From Aquihabitans sp. G128 (GTDB lineage: Bacteria > Actinomycetota > Acidimicrobiia > Acidimicrobiales > Iamiaceae), in NCBI RefSeq assembly GCF_019048865.1, contig NZ_CP077604.1, positions 3,658,001 to 3,722,000 of the forward strand: a DNA stretch of 64,000 nucleotides, given 5' to 3'. Made by a program: the position numbers and the translations under genes. The notes beneath the pieces are model-generated. The model saw nothing but the letters and a program-made list of their open reading frames with translations, made no database searches and was not told the DNA's origin. Each line of letters begins with the position of its first letter. Position 1 is the first letter of the stretch. Positions 22,080 through 64,000 of this stretch are shown one piece after another.

Positions 22080-23429
22080 ATGACCATCGCAGAGAACCGC
22101 AACGTCGCCGGCACCCCCGGGCACCACGACGGCACCCACCTCACCTCCGAGGGCGCCCAGGAGATGGACCGCCGGTCCTTCGCGGGCGGCGTCGAGGTGC
22201 TGCGCGAGGTCGGCTCGGTGCTGCGCCTGTCCGAGGCCGAGGCCGGGGCCGACGCCCCGGACGACGCCGAGACCACCATCATCAACATGGGTCCCCAGCA
22301 CCCGAGCACCCACGGCGTGCTGCGCCTCATGCTCGAGCTCGACGGCGAGACCGTGCTGCGGACCAAGCCGGTCATCGGCTACCTCCACACCGGCATGGAG
22401 AAGACCGGCGAGACGCTCACCTACCTGCAGGGCGGCACCAACGTCACGCGGATGGACTACGCCTCGCCCATCTTCAACGAGCTGGTGTTCAGCCTGGCGG
22501 CCGAGAAGCTGCTGGGCGTCGAGCTGCCGCCTCGGGCCGTGTGGATCCGCATGCTGCTCAGCGAGCTCAACCGCCTCACCTCGCACTTCCTCTTCCTGGC
22601 CACCAACGGCATGGACCTCGGGTCCTCGTCGATGATGATCTACGGCTGGCGCGAGCGCGAAGAGGGCCTGCGGATCCTCGAGATGATCACCGGCCTGCGG
22701 ATGAACCACAACTTCATCCGCGTGGGCGGCACCGCCGCCGACCTGCCCGACGGCTGGCAGGAGCGCCTCGCCACCTACCTCGAGAGCATCCCGGCCCGGC
22801 TCGAGGAGTACGAGGTCCTCATGACCAACCAGCCGATCTGGCGGGAGCGGCTCCAGGGCGTCGGCACCATCTCCACCGAGGAGGCCCTGGCGCTGGGCGC
22901 CACCGGCCCCATCCTCCGCTCCACCGGCTACGGCTGGGACCTGCGCCGCGAGATGCCCTACCTCGCCTACGACGAGGTCGACTTCGACGTCGTGGTCGGC
23001 ACCTACGGCGACTCCTTCGACCGCTATGCGATCCGGCTCAACGAGATCCGCGAGTCCATGAAGATCCTCTGGCAGTGCATCGAGCGCATGCCGGCGGGCG
23101 ACTACCGGGTCCAGGACAAGAAGGTCACGCCCCCGCCGCGCGCCCGCATCGACGAGTCGATGGAAGCGCTGATCCACCACTTCAAGATCTTCACCGAGGG
23201 CTTCAAGGTCCCCGAGGGCGAGGTCTACGTCGGCATCGAGTCGCCCCGTGGCGAGCTCGGCTGCTACCTCGTCTCCGACGGCGGGCCCACCCCGTACCGC
23301 ATGCACATCAGAGGCCCGAGCTTCGTGAACCTCCAGGTCCTGCCCCACCTCATGCACGGGGGGCTCATCGCCGACGCCGTGGCCATCATCTCCAGCGTCG
23401 ACCCGATCATGGGCGAGGTGGACCGCTAG
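22080..23429 (+). CDS. nuoD: NADH-quinone oxidoreductase subunit D, set 1
   Basis: NuoD (49-kDa type) forms the quinone-binding pocket with NuoB. The 449-residue protein has a 65-residue N-terminal extension and then the family block NMGPQHPSTHGVLRL. The two residues known from Thermus and mitochondria to contact the quinone head are present: H78 (STHG) and Y127 (TRMDY). At the position of the Arg that NDUFAF7 methylates in mitochondrial NDUFS2 (HRG), this protein has T104 (YLHTGMEK), as actinobacterial NuoD often does. It ends with the expected GEVDR. The spacing to nuoC is 16 bp. Confidence 0.96.
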   Translation: MTIAENRNVAGTPGHHDGTHLTSEGAQEMDRRSFAGGVEVLREVGSVLRLSEAEAGADAPDDAETTIINMGPQHPSTHGVLRLMLELDGETVLRTKPVIGYLHTGMEKTGETLTYLQGGTNVTRMDYASPIFNELVFSLAAEKLLGVELPPRAVWIRMLLSELNRLTSHFLFLATNGMDLGSSSMMIYGWREREEGLRILEMITGLRMNHNFIRVGGTAADLPDGWQERLATYLESIPARLEEYEVLMTNQPIWRERLQGVGTISTEEALALGATGPILRSTGYGWDLRREMPYLAYDEVDFDVVVGTYGDSFDRYAIRLNEIRESMKILWQCIERMPAGDYRVQDKKVTPPPRARIDESMEALIHHFKIFTEGFKVPEGEVYVGIESPRGELGCYLVSDGGPTPYRMHIRGPSFVNLQVLPHLMHGGLIADAVAIISSVDPIMGEVDR

Positions 23430-50415: not shown

Positions 50416-50512
50416 GGGCGGAGGCTAGCGAACAAGCGGTCAAATCGGCCTTAGCGGACAGCACCGACGGGCCCGCTCCCGCGCTCCTTTGGCCCCTCGT
50501 GAGCCGTCTCAC

Positions 50513-50518
50513 TAAGGT
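50513..50518 (+). promoter_or_regulatory. -10 element (TAAGGT) for leaderless nuoA set 2
   Basis: TAAGGT fits TANNNT and lies 8 nt before GTG 50527, so transcription should start at or next to the nuoA start codon. It gives set 2 its own promoter, separate from the bc/nuo set 1 operon. Confidence 0.5.
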
Positions 50519-50526
50519 TCGACGCC

Positions 50527-50892
50527 GTGTCCGAGTTCCTCCGCGACTACCTCACCGTCGCCATCTTCTCCGCGGTCACCATCGGGCTGCTGGGCGGCGT
50601 CCTGTCGCTCGGCAAGCTGGTCCGTCCGGTCCGTCCCCAGGGCGCCAAGTACCTCACCTACGAGAGCGGCGTCGACCCCGTGGGCGACAGCTGGGACCAG
50701 AGCCCCATCCGGTACTACGTCTTCGCCCTGCTCTTCGTCCTGTTCGACGTCGAAGCGGTCTTCATCTTCCCGTGGGCCACCCGTCTCGAGGCCTACGGCA
50801 CCTTCGGCGCCGTCGAGATGATCGTCTTCATCGTGCTCCTCTCCCTCGGGCTGCTCTACGCCTGGCGAAAGAAGGTCCTGCAGTGGATCTGA
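50527..50892 (+). CDS. nuoA: complex I subunit A, set 2
   Basis: A 121-residue three-helix protein, the normal size. The family loop reads KYLTYESGVDPVGDSWDQSPIRYYVFALLFVLFDVEAVF; the Cys of set 1 (YECGI) is Ser here (YESGV). Sequence identity with set 1 NuoA is low, so the sets are not recent duplicates. Confidence 0.94.
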   Translation: MSEFLRDYLTVAIFSAVTIGLLGGVLSLGKLVRPVRPQGAKYLTYESGVDPVGDSWDQSPIRYYVFALLFVLFDVEAVFIFPWATRLEAYGTFGAVEMIVFIVLLSLGLLYAWRKKVLQWI

Positions 50893-50943
50893 CGGGTCGG
50901 AACCCCCGCCAAGAACTCGCACTCGTGAACGGAAGCAACTGAC

Positions 50944-51444
50944 ATGGGACTGGTGGAGAGCGGCAAGCTCCCCAAGCCCCTGACGTCGCTGCTGAACACG
51001 TCGCGCAAGTACTCGCTCTGGATCTTCCAGTGGGGCCTCGCGTGCTGCGCCATCGAGATGGGCGCCGCCCTCGGCTCGCCCCGCTACGACGTCATGCGCC
51101 TCGGGGTCATCCCGCTGCCGGCCAGCCCGCGCCAGGCCGACCTCGTCTGCATCTCCGGCACCGTGACCGACAAGATGGTCCCGGCCATCCGCCGGCTCTA
51201 CGAGCAGATGCCGGACCCGAAGTACGTGATCTCCATGGGCTCCTGCGCCAACTGCGGCGGTCCGTACTGGGACAGCTACTCCGTCACCAAGGGCGTCGAC
51301 CAGGTCATCCCGGTCGACGTCTACGTGCCGGGCTGCCCGCCGCGTCCCGAGGCCCTGCTCGAGGGCATCGTGCTGCTGCAGGAGCGCATCGGCAAGGAAG
51401 ACATGGCCGAGCGCTGGAAGGGTGACCCGATCCATGTCACCTGA
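50944..51444 (+). CDS. nuoB: complex I subunit B, set 2
   Basis: A 166-residue protein with all four N2 ligands: [23 protein letters not shown] and [15 protein letters not shown]. The SCANCGG loop has an additional Cys compared with the usual SCAN(S/G)GG. It lacks the C-terminal extension of set 1. It starts 51 bp after nuoA. Confidence 0.95.
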
Positions 51445-52144
51445 CACCGAGGTCGAAGCCGCCGACGCCGCGTCGGAGGCCGTCGAGCCCGCCGGCCCGG
51501 TCGACGAGGCCCGCCAGGCCGTGGTGGCCGAGTTCACCGAGGAGCTCGGCGACGCCGTCGTCGGCTCCTTCGTGCGCCCCGGCGACGACATCTGGATCCG
51601 CGTCACCCGCGAGGCCTGGCGCACCGCCGGCTTCGTGCTGCGCGACAAGGCCGGCTTCCGGGCCTTCGAGTTCCTCTCCGTCATCGACTGGCTGCCCAGC
51701 CCGTTCGGCAAGAACGAGGACTCGCCCACCGACGCCCCGCCCACGCCATCGTCGGAGATCGTCACGGGCTACGCCGGCGGCGACACCCGCTTCCAGGTCT
51801 TCGCCCGGGCCCACTCGCTCACCCGCAAGCTCGGCGTGACCCTGAAGGTCGACCTCCCGGACGACGACCTGTCCATCGACACCTGGCTGCCCGTCTACGC
51901 CGGCGTCAACTGGCACGAGCGCGAGGCCCACGAGATGTTCGGGATCGGCTTCACCGGCCACCCGCACCTCGCCCACCTCTACCTCCCCGGCGAGTTCGAG
52001 GGGTTCCCCCTCCGCAAGACGTTCCCGCTGCTGGCCCGCCACGTGAAGCCGTGGCCCGGCATCGTCGACGTCGAGCCCATGCCCGCCGAGGCCGACGGCG
52101 ACGCCGAGGCCGAAGCCACCCCCGACGCGGAGGCCGCCGAATGA
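51434..52144 (+). CDS. nuoC: complex I subunit C, set 2
   Basis: A 236-residue protein with the family block [36 protein letters not shown]. The N-terminal 20 and C-terminal 25 residues are acidic, low-complexity extensions. ATG 51434 overlaps nuoB by 11 bp; a GTG at 51422 would add four residues. NuoD follows with an ATGA overlap. Confidence 0.93.
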
Positions 52145-53317
52145 CCGCGATCACCGACCGCCAGAAGCTGGCCTACGCCAACGCCCAGGCCGCCGACGGG
52201 CGCGTGAACCTCGAAGTTCGAGACCGACGAGGGCATGACCCTCAACATGGGCCCGCAGCACCCGGCCACCCACGGCACCCTGCGCATCATCGTCAAGCTC
52301 GACGGCGAGCAGGTCGTGAACATCGAGCCGGTCATGGGCTACATGCACCGCGGCTACGAGAAGCTGACCGAGGTCCGCACGTACCCGCAGGTCACCACGC
52401 TGGTGAACCGCATCGACTGGCTGGGCAGCTTCGCCAACGAGGTCCCGTTCATCCTCGCCGCCGAGAAGCTGATGGACATCGAGGCCCCGCCTCGCGCCCA
52501 GTGGATCCGCACCGTGCTCTTCGAGATGTCGCGCATCGCCAACATCTCGCTGTTCGTGGGCGACATGGCCCTGCACATCGGCGCCATGACCGCCGCCTTC
52601 TACGCCTTCCGCGACCGGGAGTACGTCCTCAACCAGATCGAGGCCGTCACCGGTGGGCGCTTCCACCCGAACTTCGACCGCATCGGCGGCCTGAAGGACG
52701 ACCTCCCCAAGGGCTGGATCGCCGACACCAAGGCGTCCATGGACCGCATCCGGGACTTCTGCGACGAGATGGAGACCCTCGTCGAGGGCAACGAGATCTT
52801 CCAGATCCGGACCCGCGGCGTCGGCATCATCCCCGGCGACATCGCGCTGCAGTACGGCCTCTCGGGCGCCAACCTGCGCGCCAGCGGCGTCGACTGGGAC
52901 CTCCGCCGGGACGAGCCGGTGGGCCTGGCCTGGAACGAGGTCGACTGGAACGTCGTCACCCACCCCGACGGCGACTCCTTCGCCCGCTTCTGGGTGCGCC
53001 TCCAGGAGATCCGCGAGTCCACCAAGATCATCGACCAGCTGCTCGACGGGCTGCCGGCCGGGCCGATCATGGCCAAGGTGCCCCGCATCATCAAGGTGCC
53101 CGAGGGCGAGGCCTGGGTGGCCACCGAGAACCCGCTCGGCGAGATGGGCTACTACGTGGTCTCCAAGGGCGACCTCGGCCCGTTCCGGGTGAAGATCCGC
53201 ACCGCCTCGTTCAACAACGTGTCCATCGTGCCGTGGGTGTGCCGCGGCGTGTACGTGCCCGACGTCGTGACGATCCTGGCATCCCTGTACTTCATCCTCG
53301 GAGACATCGACCGGTGA
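52141..53317 (+). CDS. nuoD: complex I subunit D, set 2, altered quinone site, apparent +1 frameshift
   Basis: With one base removed at CTCGAAG (52210-52216), the product has 391 residues and reads [20 protein letters not shown] across the join. The quinone-site His is kept (H44, PATHG). The Tyr that hydrogen-bonds the quinone head in Thermus and mitochondria (RxDY) is Trp here: W93 in NRIDWLG, codon 52418-52420. At the NDUFAF7 methylation position it has R70 (YMHRGYEK), unlike set 1, which has Thr. The ending GDIDR is normal. It must form the Q-module without NADH subunits, and the altered pocket suggests a different quinone or a different binding mode. Confidence 0.9.
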
Positions 53318-54351
53318 TCAACGGCTTCATCCACCTCTCGTACTGGGAGGTGTCGATCCTGCGCACGGTCGGCATCCTGGCCGCCGTCCTGCTCCCCGCG
53401 GGCACGTTCGTCTACCTCTTCCTGTTCAAGATGGTGTCGTTCATGCAGAGCCGGCTCGGCCCCATGGAGGCCGGCCCGTTCGGCTCCATGCAGCTGCTGG
53501 CCGAGGTGGGCAAGTTCCTCCAGAAGGAGGACATCGTCCCCGAGCGGGCCGACAAGCGCCTGTTCAAGTTCGCCCCGTACCTCGTGGTCGGCACGGTGCT
53601 GCTGGTGTACCTGGCCGTGCCGTTCGGGCCGGACATGATCTTCGCCGACCTGCCCGGCGGCGTCTTCTACATCCTGGCCGTGTCGTCCATCAGCTCGCTC
53701 GGCGTGCTCATGGCCGGCTGGTCCTCGGCCAACAAGTACGCCCTCATCGGCGGCCTCCGCGCCGCCGGCCAGCTCATCGCCTACGAGCTGCCCATGGTCC
53801 TCGCCGTCATCGGCGTCGTGATCCAGGCCGGCACCATGAACCTCTCGGGCATCGTGGCCGCGCAGGCCTCCGGCTCGATCTTCGGCCTCGACTTCTTCGG
53901 CAACCCGTACCTGCTCACGCAGTTCGTGGCCTTCGCCATCTTCATGATCTCGGTCCAGGCCGAGCTCGGCCAGACGCCCTTCGACATGCCGATCGCCGAG
54001 TCCGAGCTCGTCACCGGCTACATCACCGAGTACTCCGGCCTCCGCTTCCTGCTGTTCTTCATCGGCGAGTTCGCCTCGGCCGGCGCCTTCGCCGCCGTGG
54101 CCGCCACCCTCTTCCTGGGCGGCTGGACCGTGCCGGCGGCGTGGACCGATCTCAACAGCAACTGGTTCAACCTGCTCGGCCCGCTGATCATGCTCACCAA
54201 GATGATGGTCCTCGCCGGCCTCATCTTCTTCGTGCGGTTCACCTTCCCCCGCTTCCGCGAGGACCAGCTCCAGAAGCTGGCGTGGACCGTGCTGATCCCG
54301 ATCTCGCTGGTCAACATCCTCGCCACCACCATCCTGAAGGTTGCGTTCTGA
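53314..54351 (+). CDS. nuoH: complex I subunit H, set 2
   Basis: A 345-residue eight-helix protein with [15 protein letters not shown] in place of the usual ERK-QNRIGPN block of set 1: the ERK triplet is absent and the loop is shortened. The next loop, [30 protein letters not shown], keeps the conserved acidic residues. GTG start overlaps nuoD by 4 bp. Confidence 0.94.
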
Positions 54352-54905
54352 TGGCACCGAAGCCCAAGGTCCCCGGCCTCCTCAAGGGCATGGGGGTCAC
54401 CTTCAACGAGATGACCCAGACCATCTGGCCCGGCGAAGGCATGAAGCGCTTCATGCAGCCGCCGTCGCCCGCCAAGGGCGCGGCCACGGTGCAGTACCCC
54501 CACGAGAAGGAGGCGCCGGCCCCTCGGGCGCGCGGCGTCATCGCCCTCAAGGAGGACAACTGCACGGTGTGCATGCTCTGCGCCCGCAGCTGCCCGGACT
54601 GGTGCATCTACATCGAGGGCCACAAGGAGAAGGCGCCGCCGCGCCGTCCCGGAGGCAAGGAGCGCACCGTCTCCGCGCTCGACCGCTTCGACATCGACTA
54701 CTCGCTGTGCATGTACTGCGGCATCTGCGTCGAGGTCTGCCCGTTCGAGGCCCTGTTCTGGTCGCCCGAGTTCGAGTACTCCGAGCCGCGCATCGCCGAC
54801 CTGCTCCACGACAAGGAGCGCCTCGGCGAGTGGATGGAGACCGTCCCGGACTTCGAGCCCTACGAGGCCGGCGCCGAGGTCAAGGCCAAGAAGGTGCCGC
54901 GCTGA
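54351..54905 (+). CDS. nuoI: complex I subunit I, set 2
   Basis: A 184-residue protein with two [4Fe-4S] motifs: [12 protein letters not shown] and [12 protein letters not shown]. Between them is a basic loop ([17 protein letters not shown]). The N-terminal 60 residues include [17 protein letters not shown], a membrane-surface helix. Without NuoG, this subunit would be the entry point for a donor such as ferredoxin. Confidence 0.94.
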
Positions 54906-55447
54906 TGGGCGGGCTCCTCCTCGCCGCCGCGGCGAACGCCGACGCCGGCGTCTACGTCGCCCAGAACGTGGCGTTCGGCATCATCGCTGCGCTCATGGTC
55001 TTCTCGGCCTTCCGCGTGGTCACCACCGACAACGTGGTGCACGCCGCCTTCTACCTCGTGATGGTGCTGGCCGGGGCCGCCGCCCAGTTCATCCTGCTGG
55101 GCGCCGAGTTCATCGCCATCACCCAGGTGCTCGTCTACATCGGCGCCATCGTGGTGCTGTTCCTCTTCGGCATCATGCTGACCAAGGCGCCCATGTCCGG
55201 CGAGGAGAAGCTCAGCCGCGACAACTGGGCGCTCGGCGCCCTCACCTCGGTGGTGCTGCTGGCCCTGCTCGGCTACGTCCTGGTCGACGGCTTCGGCAAG
55301 GACAAGCTCCCGGCGGACCTGCTTCCCACGCCCACCGCGGCGATCTCCGACGCCATCTTCGGCGGCTACCTGATCCCGTTCGAGGTCATCTCCTTGCTCC
55401 TGCTCGCCGCGCTCATCGGCGCCATCGTGATCGCCCGACGGGACTGA
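54905..55447 (+). CDS. nuoJ: complex I subunit J, set 2
   Basis: A 180-residue five-helix subunit with the family pattern [50 protein letters not shown]. One-base overlap with nuoI; nuoK starts 12 bp after the stop. Confidence 0.94.
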   Translation: MGGLLLAAAANADAGVYVAQNVAFGIIAALMVFSAFRVVTTDNVVHAAFYLVMVLAGAAAQFILLGAEFIAITQVLVYIGAIVVLFLFGIMLTKAPMSGEEKLSRDNWALGALTSVVLLALLGYVLVDGFGKDKLPADLLPTPTAAISDAIFGGYLIPFEVISLLLLAALIGAIVIARRD

Positions 55448-55459
55448 GGGGCCGCCGCC

Positions 55460-55759
55460 ATGTTCCTGAACCAGTTCCTCCTCCTCGCCGCCGTGCTCTT
55501 CTGCATCGGCGTGTACGGGGTCATCTCCCGTCGCAACGGCGTCATGGTCCTGATGTCGATCGAGCTCATCCTGAACTCGGTCAACATCAACCTGGTGGCC
55601 TTCAGCGCCATGACCGGCGCCGTCTCGGGCCAGGTGTTCGCCCTGTTCGTGATCGCCGTGGCCGCCGCCGAGGTGGGCGTCGGCCTGGCCATCGTGCTGG
55701 CGATCTTCCGCAACTACCGCAGCGTCGACCTCGATGACGTCGACCTGATGAAGGGCTGA
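55460..55759 (+). CDS. nuoK: complex I subunit K, set 2
   Basis: A 99-residue three-helix subunit. The buried Glu residues of the proton path are in VLMSIELILNSVNINLV and VAAAEVGVGLAIVLAIFR. Normal length. nuoL starts 4 bp after the stop. Confidence 0.94.
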   Translation: MFLNQFLLLAAVLFCIGVYGVISRRNGVMVLMSIELILNSVNINLVAFSAMTGAVSGQVFALFVIAVAAAEVGVGLAIVLAIFRNYRSVDLDDVDLMKG

Positions 55760-55763
55760 GGCA

Positions 55764-58027
<2,264 letters not shown>

Positions 58028-58028
<1 letters not shown>

Positions 58029-58090
58029 TGCGCCACGACCCGAAGAAGATGTTGGATCGCAAGTTGATGACGAGGGAGTCGCAACCGTGA
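58028..58090 (+). CDS. 20-residue ORF bridging nuoL and nuoM, set 2
   Basis: ATG 58028 overlaps the nuoL stop (TGATG) and opens a 20-codon basic ORF (MRHDPKKMLDRKLMTRESQP) whose TGA overlaps the nuoM GTG as GTGA. It fills the only spacing over 55 bp inside this part of the operon. It may be a coupling ORF that carries ribosomes from nuoL to nuoM, or chance. No function for the peptide is suggested. Confidence 0.35.
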
Positions 58091-59640
58091 AGGACCTGCT
58101 CAACGGCTGGGGGCCCACCGCCGCCGTGTTCCTGCCCCTGGTGGGAGCCGCGGTGCTGTTGGCGATCCCGAAGTCCGAGGAGACCCTGCACAAGGTGGTG
58201 GCCCTGGTCACCAGCCTGGCGGTCTTCGTCGTCGGGGTCGGCCTGCTGGCCACCTTCGACTACGACAAGTCCGCCAAGATGCAGTTCCTCGTCGACAAGA
58301 CGTGGATCGAGATGATCAACAGCCGCTACATCGTGGCCATCGACGGGATCTCGCTCCCGCTGATCGCCCTCACGGTGTTCGTGGTGCCGCTGGTGATCAT
58401 CTACTCGTGGAACCACTTCCCCGAGCCGCACAACCCGAAGGCGTTCCTCACGCTGATCCTGGTGCTGGAGACCGGCATGGTCGGCACCTTCGTGGCCCAG
58501 GACCTGCTGCTCTTCTTCGTCTTCTTCGAGCTCGTGCTGCTGCCGATGTACTTCATGATCGGCGTCTTCGGCGGCGAGCAGCGCAAGTACGCCTCGCTGA
58601 AGTTCTTCCTCTACACCGCCTTCGGCTCGGCGCTCATGATCGTGTCGATCCTGGCCACGTACTTCCTCTCGCCCAAGGTGAACATCGACGGCGTGATGCA
58701 GCACACCTTCTCGATGATCGAGCTGTCGAACTGGGCCGGCTCCGGCCTGGCCAAGGGCACGGCCATCCTGATCTTCGGCGGCTTCTTCATGGGCTTCGGC
58801 ATCAAGGTGCCGATGTTCCCCTTCCACACCTGGCTGCCCGACGCCCACACCCAGGCCCCCACCCAGGGCTCGGTCATCCTGGCCGCCGTGCTGCTCAAGC
58901 TCGGCACCTACGGCTTCGTGCGCATCGCCATCCCGATCCTGCCCGTGGGCGCGGTCTGGTGGGCGCCGATCATCGGCGGCCTGGCCGTCATCGGCATCAT
59001 CTACGGCGCCCTCGGCTGCCTCGCCCAGACCGACATGAAGCGGCTCATCGCCTTCTCCTCGGTGGCCCACATGGGCTACGTCATGCTGGGCATCTCCACG
59101 CTGACGAGCTTCGGCATCAACGCCGCCATCTTCGGCATGGTCGCCCACGGCCTCATCACCGGCATGCTGTTCTTCCTCGCCGGCTCGGTGAAGGACCGCT
59201 TCCACACCCTCGAGATCAAGCGCCTCGGCGGCCTGCTCCTGCAGGCCCCCCGCATGGGCTGGCTCCTGGCCTTCTCCTGCATGGCGTCGCTCGGCCTGCC
59301 CGGCCTCGCCGGGTTCTGGGGCGAGTTCCCGGCCATCCTCTCGGCCTACAGCCCGGCCGACGGCCTCAACGTGCCGCTGTTCCGGTTCTTCATGGTGGTC
59401 GCCGCCATCGGCACCGTGTTCGCCGCCGGCTACCTCCTCTGGCTGCTCCAGCGGGTGGCCTTCGGCACGCCCACCGAGGAGTTCGAGGACGAGCACATCC
59501 ACGACATGCACCTCACCGACTACCTCGCGTGGTCGCCGATGATCATCCTCATCGTGGTGCTCGGCGTGTACCCGAACCTGTTGTTCAAGATCACCGACGG
59601 CGCCGTGATCCACAGCCTCAGCCACATCGCGGGTCACTGA
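58087..59640 (+). CDS. nuoM: complex I subunit M, set 2
   Basis: A 517-residue NuoM (ND4). Key blocks: FFELVLLPMYFMIGVFG (key Glu), KVPMFPFHTWLPDAHTQAPTQGSVILAAVLLKLGTYGF (key Lys) and DMKRLIAFSSVAHMGYVMLG. It lacks the charged C-terminal tail of set 1. GTG start, coupled to the small ORF before it. Confidence 0.95.
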   Translation: MKDLLNGWGPTAAVFLPLVGAAVLLAIPKSEETLHKVVALVTSLAVFVVGVGLLATFDYDKSAKMQFLVDKTWIEMINSRYIVAIDGISLPLIALTVFVVPLVIIYSWNHFPEPHNPKAFLTLILVLETGMVGTFVAQDLLLFFVFFELVLLPMYFMIGVFGGEQRKYASLKFFLYTAFGSALMIVSILATYFLSPKVNIDGVMQHTFSMIELSNWAGSGLAKGTAILIFGGFFMGFGIKVPMFPFHTWLPDAHTQAPTQGSVILAAVLLKLGTYGFVRIAIPILPVGAVWWAPIIGGLAVIGIIYGALGCLAQTDMKRLIAFSSVAHMGYVMLGISTLTSFGINAAIFGMVAHGLITGMLFFLAGSVKDRFHTLEIKRLGGLLLQAPRMGWLLAFSCMASLGLPGLAGFWGEFPAILSAYSPADGLNVPLFRFFMVVAAIGTVFAAGYLLWLLQRVAFGTPTEEFEDEHIHDMHLTDYLAWSPMIILIVVLGVYPNLLFKITDGAVIHSLSHIAGH

Positions 59641-59642
59641 TC

Positions 59643-61172
59643 GTGCTGGCTCCCGTCCTCGCCGCCTCCTCGGGGTTCACCTCCCCGCACGTCGACTGGC
59701 ACGCGCTCGCGCCCGAGATCATCCTCGTGGGCACGATCGTCGTGGCCTTGCTGATCGACCTGTTCACCGAGGACCACAACAAGGGCCTCGTGTCCAGCGT
59801 GGTGGGGCTCGGCATGCTGGCGTCGTTCATCCCGCTCATCACCCTGGGGCTCGACAACCACGAGCGGGTCATGTTCGGCGGGGCCTACGTGGTCGACGAC
59901 TTCGCCTTGGTGCTCAAGGGGCTGTTCCTGGTGGCCGGCTACCTCACGGTGCTGCTCTCCACCAACACCATCGCCGAGGGCGACTACCACGAGGGCGAGT
60001 ACTACCTGCTGCTGCTCTCGAGCGTGCTGGGCATGACCTTCATGGCCAGCGCCCGGGACCTCATCTCGATCTTCGTGGCGCTGGAGATGCTCTCGATCCC
60101 GGCCTACCTGCTGGCGTCGTGGCGCAAGCGCACCCAGACCGGCATCGAGGCCGGCATGAAGTACTACCTGATGGGCGTGTTCGCCACGGCCGTCATGCTC
60201 TACGGCATGTCGCTCATCTTCGGCGGCACGGGCTCCACCCTGCTGACCGACGTCGGCGCCGCGGTGAACGGCTCGTTCGGTCAGGAGCCGGTGGCCGTGC
60301 TCGGCATCGTCTTCGTGATCGTCGGCTTCGCCTTCAAGGTCTCGGCGGTGCCGTTCCACAACTGGGCCCCGGACACCTACGAAGGCGCCCCCACCCCGGT
60401 GACCGCCTTCCTGTCGGTGGCCTCCAAGACCGCCGGGTTCGTGGCCATCCTGCAGCTGGTGTTCCTCGGCTTCTTCAACCGCAGCGACACCATCCGCCCG
60501 TTCATGTTCGTGCTGGCCGTGCTGACCATGACGGTGGGCAACGTGATCGCCCTGCGCCAGACCAACGTGGTGCGCCTGTTCGCCTACTCCTCGGTGGCCC
60601 AGGCCGGCTTCATCCTGGCTCCGCTGGCCGTCATCTCCAGCAACCACCCCGACCGCGCCGCCGACATCCTGTCGTCGATCGTGCTGTACCTGATCGTGTA
60701 CACGATCATGAACCTCGGGGCGTTCGCGGTGATCATCACGGTGAGCCGCCGCACCCAGTCGGGCGAGATCACCAGCTGGGCCGGCCTGTTCACCTACGCC
60801 CCCGGGCTCGCGGTGGCCATGGGCGCCTTCCTCTTCGGCCTCGGCGGCATCCCGCCGGCAGCCGGCTGGTTCGCCAAGTTCCAGCTGTTCAACGCCGTGG
60901 TGGGCGCCGGCACCCCGTCGGCCTACGCGCTCGGCGTGATCATGGCCGCCAACTCGGTCATCTCGCTGGCGTACTACCTCGGCCTCATGCGGACGATGTT
61001 CATGGACGATCCGGTCGACGGCGACGTCACGCCGGTCAAGATCCCGGTGCCCCTGCGGGCGGCGGTCGTGCTCACGGGCGTGGCCACGATCCTGCTCGGC
61101 GTGCTGCCGTTCCTGGTGTCCGACATCGCCGACGGCGCCACCTTCGTCACCGCCTACCTGCCCGGCAAGTAG
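59643..61172 (+). CDS. nuoN: complex I subunit N, set 2
   Basis: A 509-residue NuoN (ND2). Blocks: FVALEMLSIPAYLLASW (key Glu), GFAFKVSAVPFHNWAPDTYEGAPTPVTAFLSVASKTAGFVAIL and VVRLFAYSSVAQAGFILAPL. The GTG at 59643 follows the nuoM stop by 2 bp; the frame is open upstream but has no better start. The last pump gene of set 2. Confidence 0.95.
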   Translation: MLAPVLAASSGFTSPHVDWHALAPEIILVGTIVVALLIDLFTEDHNKGLVSSVVGLGMLASFIPLITLGLDNHERVMFGGAYVVDDFALVLKGLFLVAGYLTVLLSTNTIAEGDYHEGEYYLLLLSSVLGMTFMASARDLISIFVALEMLSIPAYLLASWRKRTQTGIEAGMKYYLMGVFATAVMLYGMSLIFGGTGSTLLTDVGAAVNGSFGQEPVAVLGIVFVIVGFAFKVSAVPFHNWAPDTYEGAPTPVTAFLSVASKTAGFVAILQLVFLGFFNRSDTIRPFMFVLAVLTMTVGNVIALRQTNVVRLFAYSSVAQAGFILAPLAVISSNHPDRAADILSSIVLYLIVYTIMNLGAFAVIITVSRRTQSGEITSWAGLFTYAPGLAVAMGAFLFGLGGIPPAAGWFAKFQLFNAVVGAGTPSAYALGVIMAANSVISLAYYLGLMRTMFMDDPVDGDVTPVKIPVPLRAAVVLTGVATILLGVLPFLVSDIADGATFVTAYLPGK

Positions 61173-61204: not shown

Positions 61205-62281
61205 GTGAACGAGCTCGAGGCGATCCTAGTCGAGCACCTCGTCGCCCACGGGCCCATCGGCTTCGACGAGTACGTCGACCACGCGCTGTACACGCCGGAC
61301 CTGGGCTTCTACGCCGCAGGCGGCGGCGCGGGCCGCCGTCGGGACTTCCTGACCAGCCCCGAGGTCGGCCCGCTGTTCGGCGCGGTGCTGGCCGGCGCGC
61401 TCGACTCCTGGTGGGACGAGCTCGGCTGTCCGGACCCGTTCCCGGTGGTCGAGGCCGGCGCGGGGCCGGGAACGCTGGCCCGCACCATCCTGGCCGCCGG
61501 GCCCCGCTGCGCTTCGGCGCTGTCGCTCGTGCTCGTGGAGGCCGCCGAGGTGCAGTGGTCCACCCACCCGGCCGGCGTGTCCAGCCGGACCGACCTGCCG
61601 GCGCCCGGCGAGCTCGGCACCGGCCCCGTGGTGGTGCTGGCCAACGAGCTGCTCGACAATCTCCCGTTCGGCCTGGTGGAGCTGGCCGACGGCGGCTGGT
61701 GCGAGGTGGCCGTCGCGGCCAGCGGCACCGAGGGCCCGGCGGGCTCCGGTCGCCTCGTCGAGGTCCTCGTCCCGCTCGAGCCCCGCCGCGCCGCCTGGTG
61801 CTGGGGCAAGGCCGGGCGCGACGCCGCCGTCGGCACCCGCCTCCCGGTCCAGGCCGCGGCGGCCGGGTGGCTCGACGACGCCCTCGAGCTGGCGGCCGGC
61901 GGCCGGGTGGTGGTCATCGACTACGCCGCCACCACCCGGGAGCTGGCCCGGCGCCCGTGGACCGAGTGGGTGCGCACCTACGCCGCCCACGGCCGCGGCG
62001 CCGACCCGCTGCGCGACCCCGGCTCGTGCGACATCACCGTCGAGGTCGCCGTCGACCAGCTGGCGACGGTGGCCGAGCCCGACCGGGACCGGGACCAGGC
62101 CACGTTCCTGCGGGCCCACGGCATCGACGCCCTGGTGGCCGAGGGCGCCGCCCGCTGGCGCGAGCTCGGCGCCGCCGGCGGCCTCCCCGCCATCGCCGGC
62201 CGCAGCCGCGTCCACGAGGCCGACGCCCTCACCGACCCCACCGGCCTCGGCGCCTTCCGCGTCCTGGAGTGGCACGCCTGA
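61205..62281 (+). CDS. MidA/NDUFAF7-type protein arginine methyltransferase, likely complex I assembly factor
   Basis: A 358-residue class I methyltransferase of the DUF185 (MidA) family. Family blocks: GPIGFDEYVDHALYTPDLGFY, RRDFLTSPEVGPLFGAVLA, the SAM loop VVEAGAGPGTLARTIL, VVLANELLDNLPFGLVE and GRVVVIDYAATTREL. The human and Dictyostelium members act in complex I assembly; human NDUFAF7 dimethylates an Arg of NDUFS2, the homologue of NuoD. The gene lies 32 bp after nuoN of set 2, whose NuoD has that Arg (R70), whereas set 1 NuoD has Thr. So set 2 NuoD is the probable substrate; this is inference. GTG 61205 gives the family start. Confidence 0.88.
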   Translation: MNELEAILVEHLVAHGPIGFDEYVDHALYTPDLGFYAAGGGAGRRRDFLTSPEVGPLFGAVLAGALDSWWDELGCPDPFPVVEAGAGPGTLARTILAAGPRCASALSLVLVEAAEVQWSTHPAGVSSRTDLPAPGELGTGPVVVLANELLDNLPFGLVELADGGWCEVAVAASGTEGPAGSGRLVEVLVPLEPRRAAWCWGKAGRDAAVGTRLPVQAAAAGWLDDALELAAGGRVVVIDYAATTRELARRPWTEWVRTYAAHGRGADPLRDPGSCDITVEVAVDQLATVAEPDRDRDQATFLRAHGIDALVAEGAARWRELGAAGGLPAIAGRSRVHEADALTDPTGLGAFRVLEWHA

Positions 62282-62296
62282 CCCACCCTCCCCGCC

Positions 62297-62351
62297 GGAA
62301 CGTTGGGTCCCAGGCCCACGCGCGCACGGGTGTGGCACCCGAAGTTCGAGG
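62297..62351. repeat. 55-bp palindromic repeat, copy 1 (imperfect)
   Basis: This copy differs from copy 2 at three positions (52 of 55 identical). Those changes leave its two arms (GAACGTTGGGTCCCA and TGGCACCCGAAGTTC) with three mismatches, so its hairpin is weaker. It begins 16 bp after the MidA-type gene. Confidence 0.85.
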
Positions 62352-62370
62352 GGGGCGCGGCCACCACCTC

Positions 62371-62425
62371 GGAACTTTGGGTCCCAGGCCCACGCGCGCA
62401 CGGGTGTGGGACCCAAAGTTCGAGG
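62371..62425. repeat. 55-bp palindromic repeat, copy 2 (perfect arms)
   Basis: Direct repeat of copy 1, 74 bp further on. Its arms GAACTTTGGGTCCCA and TGGGACCCAAAGTTC are perfectly complementary over 15 bp around a 20-nt loop that itself has CCC...GGG. It lies between convergent genes, 45 bp from the catalase stop. It may act as a two-way transcription stop or be a REP/MITE-like element. Confidence 0.85.
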
Positions 62426-62469: not shown

Positions 62470-63975
62470 TCAGAAGCCGGCGGTCTTCTCGGGGACGTTG
62501 GCCGCGGGGTCGGCCAGGGCGCCGGAGCGGAGGTCCTTCACCGCCGCCTCGACGCGGGCGCCGTACTCGGCGTCGGCGTTGCGGAAGTTGGCGACGGCCC
62601 GCTCGATGATGTCGTCGCGGGAGACCTGGGCCAGCGAGCCGGCGATGTTGTCGACCAAGCGGTCCTTGGCGTCGGCGTCGAGGAGCCGGTAGAGGTCGCC
62701 GGCCTGGCGGAAGTCGTCGTCGTCGGCGTGGTGCTCGTACGCGAAGTGGCCGCTGCCGCCGTCGGAGGCCAGCGGGGCGTAGAGCTCCTGGCCGGTCTCG
62801 ACCGGGCCGTCGAACGAGTTGGGCTCGTAGTTCTTGCTGCCGCCGCCGTTGTCGGTGAACTGCATGATGCCGTCGCGGCGGTAGTTGGCGACGGTGGCCC
62901 GCTTGGCCGAGTTCACCGGCAGCAGGTTGGCGTTGCCCGTGAGGCGGTACCGGTGGGCGTCGCCGTAGGCGAACAGCCGGCCCTGGAGCATCTTGTCCGG
63001 CGAGGGACCGATGCCCGGCACGAAGTGCGCCGGGTTGAACGCCGACTGCTCCACCTCGGCGAAGTAGTTCTCCGGCCAGCGGTTCAGGGTCATCGTGCCG
63101 ACCTTGATGCGGGGGTAGTCCTTCTGCGACCAGACCTTGGTGAGGTCGAACGGGTTGAAGCGGTAGGTGGCGGCGTCGGCCAAGGGCATGATCTGCACCT
63201 CGACGCTCCAGCTGGGGAACTCGCCGGCCTCGATCGAGGTGCGGAGGTCCTGGAGGTGGGCTTCGGGGTTGCGCCCGCCGACCTCTTCGGCCTCGGCGTT
63301 GGTGAAGTAGCCGATGCCCTGGTTGGTCTTGAAGTGGTACTTCACCCAGACGGCCTCGCCCTCGGCGTTCACCCACTGGAAGGTGTGGGAACCGAAGCCG
63401 TCCATGTGGCGCACGGAGCTGGGGCGACCCCGGTCGCCGAAGAGCCACGTGAACTGGTGGGTGGTGGCGGGGTGGAGGCCGAAGAAGTCCCAGACGTTGT
63501 CGGGCTCCTGCTGGTTGGTGCGGGGGTCGTACTTCTGCGAGTGGATGAAGTCGGGGAACTTGATGGCGTCGCGGATGAAGAAGATCGGGGTGTTGTTGCC
63601 CACCAGGTCGTAGTTGCCGTCCTCGGTGTAGAACTTCAGCGCGAAGCCCCGCGGGTCCCGGGCCGTGTCCGGGGCGCCCTTGGAGCCGGCGACGGTGGAG
63701 AAGCGGGCGAAGACCTCGGTCTTGGCGCCGGGCTGGAACAGCTTGGCCTTGGTGTACCGGCTGACGTCTTCGGTCACCTCGAGCTCGCCGTAGGCGGCGA
63801 TGCCCACGGCGTGCACGATGCGCTCGGGGATCTGCTCCCGGTTGAAGTGGGCCAGCTTCTCGATCAGGTGGTGGTCCTGGAGCAGCACCGGGCCGCCGGC
63901 GCCGGCGGTCTCCGAGTGCTGGTTGTCGGTGACCGGCGTGCCGGTCTCGGTGGTGAGGGTGGGGCGCTCGCTCAT
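62470..63975 (-). CDS. katA: monofunctional heme catalase
   Basis: A 501-residue catalase that breaks hydrogen peroxide into water and oxygen. The distal His is in [15 protein letters not shown]; the following residues differ from the common HAKGxGAxG. The catalytic Asn is in [21 protein letters not shown], and the heme-ligand Tyr region is [15 protein letters not shown]. The size places it with small-subunit catalases. ATG 63975 is chosen because GGAG stands about 8 nt before it; ATG 63984 would leave no spacing. Convergent with the MidA-type gene; the promoter lies beyond the window edge. It plausibly protects the respiratory chain from peroxide. Confidence 0.94.
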
Positions 63976-64000
63976 GGGTTCCATCTCCGGAGGGTGCGGG

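Follow-up and report, generated by a model that had tools for sequence, protein, structure and literature searches.

Symmetric dimethylation of Arg85 of NDUFS2, or of the equivalent Arg in NuoD, has been found in the bovine, human, Pichia and Paracoccus enzymes, while the corresponding Arg of E. coli is unmodified (PMC3750175). In Thermus, the equivalent residue is the Thr of an HTG motif (PMC3750175, PMC3829151). The human methyltransferase for this position is NDUFAF7, which acts early in complex I assembly (PMC3829151), and a proposal made for Yarrowia casts the Arg as a key or lock between the NuoD and NuoB homologues (PMC8042128). Whether the dimethylation is an assembly lock or instead tunes cluster N2 is debated, since an organism with a single complex I makes it difficult to tell the effect of losing the Arg from that of losing the methyl groups. 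The family to which NDUFAF7 and MidA belong and its proposed substrate class are known, and the general idea that MidA acts on NuoD has already been published. The view, held in an initial sequence-only reading of the locus described here, that MidA has been little studied in bacteria is partly outdated, given that Paracoccus NuoD is known to be dimethylated at the Arg85-equivalent Arg (PMC3750175).

We analysed a 64,000-nucleotide stretch of the Aquihabitans sp. G128 genome (hereafter, the window). Its second nuo set comprises 11 genes, nuoA, B, C, D, H, I, J, K, L, M and N, without E, F or G (50499..61172, forward strand; by tblastn and ORF layout), a gene content shared by relatives. It includes nuoB (50944..51444, forward strand; NCBIfam NuoB, E = 1e-64), whose product is the partner of NuoD at cluster N2, and ends with nuoN (59637..61172, forward strand, start codon approximate; NCBIfam NuoN, E = 1e-117). 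A gene for a MidA/NDUFAF7-family S-adenosylmethionine (SAM)-dependent methyltransferase follows on the same strand (61205..62281; 358 amino acids, GTG start). The gap from the end of nuoN at 61172 to the MidA start at 61205 is 32 nt, as the sequence-only reading had it; its placing of MidA next to NuoD holds for the operon, which the two share, but not for the distance, which is about 9 kb. A catalase (HPII-like) gene lies convergent with MidA (62470-63984, reverse strand; NCBIfam E = 5e-132, below the model's own cut-off). The interval between them (62298-62421) contains a palindromic element in two tandem copies (GAACTTTGGGTCCCA ... TGGGACCCAAAGTTC) and folds far better than shuffled sequences (z = -6.5).

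Membership of the window protein in the MidA/NDUFAF7 family is settled, apart from the question of its activity. PF02636 (Methyltransf_28) matches residues 62-291 with E = 2.9e-28 and 99.5 bits, compared with a curated cut-off of 23.3, and a Pfam search of the whole 4.94 Mb genome returned this ORF as the single match; an NCBIfam search of the protein gave no match. Sequence comparison with the PDB showed it to be related to Rhodopseudomonas palustris 1zkd, Burkholderia thailandensis 4f3n and Dictyostelium MidA 5ztz. An AlphaFold model built from an alignment of 33 close relatives had a mean pLDDT of 92.5, and in a PDB fold search with this model the first six ranks were family structures (5zu0, 5ztz, 4g67, 4f3n and 1zkd), led by Dictyostelium MidA (5zu0/5ztz; E = 4e-26, TM 0.78-0.79), with the first structure from outside the family far weaker (E = 2e-6, TM 0.30). 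The SAM-binding and core motifs E-x-G-x-G, ANE-x-x-D (here ANELLDN), DY and D-I/V-T (here DIT) are all present, and across A1 and A2 they show little or no variation. A paper on a MidA structure reportedly argued for a proteobacterial origin.

The genome encodes exactly two NuoD proteins. In set 1 (nuoD at 22080..23429, forward strand; NCBIfam NuoD, E = 7e-161), the motif at 22386 reads GYLHTGMEK, with a Thr codon at the Arg85 position (22389..22391, forward strand), as in Thermus. In set 2, the motif at 52346 reads GYMHRGYEK, and in an alignment to Thermus Nqo4 (2fug_4) its Arg (codon 52349..52351, forward strand) falls on the Thr of the Thermus HTG. Together with the published equivalence of that Thr to Arg85 (PMC3750175, PMC3829151), this alignment places the set 2 Arg at the NDUFS2 Arg85 position and bears out the earlier claim that only the set 2 NuoD carries the target residue; MidA therefore has a predicted target Arg in a NuoD of its own genome. 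The residue is R70 in the frame of relatives, but R39 if counted, in the DNA as sequenced, from the first in-frame ATG (52235). The set 2 gene spans 52141..53317 on the forward strand, with an intact ORF at 52235-53317; near 52206 it reads GAAGTT where relatives have GAGTT, and this one-nucleotide insertion puts the ATG at 52141 out of frame with the rest of the gene. The extra base is likely a sequencing or assembly error, as the assembly, a single contig, has an estimated completeness of only 92%.

To survey the association between MidA and the Arg across the phylum, we used 296 genomes at least 90% complete, 142 of which had an Arg-type NuoD by a broad pattern and 101 a Thr-type NuoD by pattern, plus one (G196) read by hand. 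PF02636 was present in 78. Arg-type NuoD occurred in 75 of these 78 genomes with MidA, compared with 67 of the 218 without; counted the other way, MidA was present in 75/142 Arg genomes and 3/43 Thr-only genomes (Fisher odds ratio 14.9, P = 1.6e-8, uncorrected for phylogeny). The sequence-only reading had named MidA being equally common alongside Thr-only NuoD as the result that would count against it, and no such pattern appeared. In control genomes of E. coli and Thermus, a PF02636 search found none. The association is one-sided, in that Arg does not imply MidA: about 66 Arg-type genomes, resembling E. coli in this respect, had no detectable MidA, a figure that is an upper bound because Pfam missed the MidA of one genome (G260). 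Families f24, f27, f45, f52 and f67 have no detectable MidA and a nuoD2 with Arg at the Arg85 position and Trp at the quinone Tyr position (R/W type), implying that the Arg works without MidA or is served by another enzyme.

Three MidA genomes (G089, G196 and G244) had no Arg-type NuoD that we could find. A narrow HRG pattern, restricted to Gly after the Arg and to CGN codons, had given nine apparent cases of MidA with Thr-only NuoD, seven of which were pattern misses: when the loci were read, all seven had an Arg-type second NuoD, with YMHRAAEK in six f21 genomes and HRG in G188. G089 and G244 were left as exceptions, and G196 was added once its sole NuoD was read as HTG. In G244 (locus L119, 3463-4960), a Streptomyces-type MidA lies divergent beside nuoB2, and only a Thr-type NuoD was found in the genome. 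In G196 (locus L121, 4802-6801), which has only a Thr-type NuoD, the MidA-family gene adjoins a gene resembling arginine deiminases and dimethylarginine hydrolases.

A second sample of 247 Actinomycetes genomes gave the same picture. PF02636 was found in 78, the Arg pattern in 64 and both in 62, of which 48 were absent from the first sample. Direct reading of the sequences showed that all 16 genomes with MidA only have a divergent second NuoD with HR[GS][AT]E[KR], which in 15 of the 16 shares a contig with MidA at a distance of no more than about 12 kb. G260, which had appeared to carry the Arg without MidA, was rejected as such a case, as a MidA missed by Pfam, 46% identical to that of G082, was found about 2 kb upstream of its nuoD2. 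An Arg-type NuoD is thus present in 79/79 MidA genomes of this sample, almost always within 12 kb of MidA, and the only genome with Arg but no MidA is G309, a fragmented assembly. Where both pattern and Pfam matched, MidA and the Arg-type nuoD shared a contig in 61 of 62 pairs, with a median gap of 2.2 kb.

Gene position is the strongest evidence for the pairing of MidA with NuoD2. In Acidimicrobiia (GTDB), set 2 nuoN precedes MidA on the same strand in each of the 74 loci whose sequence reaches far enough upstream, at a distance of at most 320 nt in 69, and the motif was GYMHRGYEK in each of 40 NuoD sequences read. In several other lineages the operon is split. Streptomyces (G023, G162) and families f20, f21, f44 and f59 have a second nuo operon with the order A-B-C-(no D)-H-I-J-K-L-M-N or one close to it, and the only Arg-type nuoD of these genomes is far off or on another contig, beside MidA or within 8 kb of it. 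The relocated nuoD2/MidA loci have no further nuo gene in reach, except for a nuoC-like stretch in G021, and a search with the MidA HMM around the D-less operons found nothing, indicating that MidA follows nuoD2 rather than the remainder of set 2. The separation of Streptomyces nuoD2 from nuo2 has been reported (PMC8388888); in the literature searched we found no report that pairs it with MidA. A mirror-tree correlation between MidA and NuoD2 (r = 0.78) was given no weight, as species relatedness alone can yield such a value.

MidA-linked NuoD2 also departs from canonical complex I at the quinone site. Its set 2 representative in the window has a Trp codon (52418..52420, forward strand) where the 2fug_4 alignment places the quinone-binding Tyr (bovine Y108, Thermus Y87), so that the Tyr expected of a canonical quinone-reducing complex I is missing, a difference bearing on quinone chemistry and not on the Arg. 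Both Arg85 and this Trp were present in 45/45 MidA-linked NuoD2 sequences, compared with Tyr in 20/20 of the Thr type; in a few MidA genomes outside the clades of these 45 sequences, Arg is combined with Tyr. The literature searched yielded no mention of this Tyr-to-Trp difference in NuoD2. The Asp160 position is variable in NuoD2, and in a few divergent Actinomycetes copies the quinone His59 is replaced by Gln or Thr while Arg and MidA are kept. That MidA and the Arg persist in copies with Trp or without His59 would favour an assembly role over a role in quinone chemistry. In MidA-linked NuoD the Arg is mostly followed by Gly and, at the second position, by Tyr, Ala, His or Thr; many Arg-type NuoD proteins of MidA-less genomes, which cluster phylogenetically, have HRC, HRA or HRS, or Phe two residues past the Arg. 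Stand-alone NuoD genes beside MidA at loci L325, L331, L332, L335 and L336 have lost His59 (Gln or Thr) and retain the HR motif and the Trp.

We put the probability at roughly 78% that MidA dimethylates R70 of NuoD2 during assembly of the EFG-less complex and that NuoD1 is not a substrate. MidA would use S-adenosylmethionine to methylate the HRG-loop Arg of set 2 NuoD, most likely by symmetric dimethylation, before or during docking of NuoD2 on NuoB2 near iron-sulfur cluster N2, and this would help the EFG-less complex I, with its 11 subunits, to assemble. The NuoD of set 1, with Thr at the Arg85 position, would offer no substrate. Family, fold, residue states, operon position, co-occurrence and the tracking of Arg-type nuoD by MidA are observed. 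The methylation itself, its symmetric form, its timing and its part in assembly we infer from the mitochondrial and Paracoccus enzymes, and protein arginine methyltransferase activity on the NuoD2 Arg accordingly stays putative. The predicted choice of set 2 over set 1 as the substrate has good support from co-occurrence (75/78 and 79/79) and from MidA following the split nuoD2. A further and rather doubtful extension is that actinobacterial Arg methylation would serve the EFG-less complex I exclusively, as an assembly check on NuoD2-NuoB2 docking that keeps NuoD2 out of complex 1, independent of quinone chemistry.

Because the Arg is invariant within the NuoD2 clade, co-occurrence ties MidA to the Arg and to the other features of NuoD2 alike, and MidA tracks the nuoD2 gene in a way that leaves the bound residue unspecified. 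Such tracking would also be seen if MidA were an assembly chaperone for NuoD2, its methyltransferase activity lost, minor or directed at a residue other than the HRG Arg, and families f52, f45 and f67, with R/W-type NuoD that keeps the Arg in the absence of MidA, fit such a role. We nevertheless consider it unlikely, as the SAM-fold core and the ANELLDN, DY and DIT motifs are conserved in MidA, and the known target of the human enzyme is Arg85, a residue modified in Paracoccus as well.

The exceptions to co-occurrence could instead mean that MidA owes its place near nuo genes to operon hitchhiking and has its target in another protein, such as NuoB2 or one outside complex I: the MidA of G244 is beside nuoB2, and G196 and G089 retain MidA with Thr-type NuoD only. 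This would hardly account for the several distinct arrangements that join MidA to nuoD2, among them relocated nuoD2 with no other nuo gene, and we regard it as improbable. Modification of NuoD1 and NuoD2 alike at a common site other than Arg85 is compatible with the sequences, in which other conserved Arg residues exist, but the absence of MidA from 40 of 43 Thr-only genomes makes it very improbable.

As far as we searched, two points are new: the pairing of MidA with one isoform in cells that have two types of complex I, of which we found no account in the literature searched, and the way the MidA gene follows nuoD2 where the latter has been relocated. Bacteria with an Arg-type and a Thr-type NuoD and one dedicated MidA gene are a natural internal control for the debated role of the modification. 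Streptomyces laboratory strains have this arrangement together with a complete set 1 complex I, so that MidA is probably deletable in them.

Compared with known systems, the window MidA is closest in fold to Dictyostelium MidA (5ztz, 5zu0), to which it is 22% identical; unlike that protein, it is bacterial and shorter, and its substrate is predicted. Structures have also been solved for bacterial members of its family, the COG1565/DUF185 proteins 1zkd (R. palustris) and 4f3n/4g67 (B. thailandensis), which, unlike the window protein, are proteobacterial, and which were deposited without a demonstrated substrate. An EFG-less second nuo cluster like set 2 is known from marine actinobacteria as the 11-gene nuo paralog of Ca. 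Actinomarinales, in an account whose nuo description mentions neither MidA nor the Arg/Thr difference (PMC7771536). Streptomyces nuo2 is likewise a second nuo set with an Arg-type nuoD2, as in set 2 here, and the description of its separate nuoD2 leaves the neighbouring MidA unmentioned (PMC8388888). Human NDUFAF7 and NDUFS2 Arg85 share the enzyme family and, in an orthologous subunit, the equivalent target position; NDUFAF7, however, is mitochondrial and serves a single complex I, whereas here there are two complexes per cell, with the Arg only in the EFG-less one.
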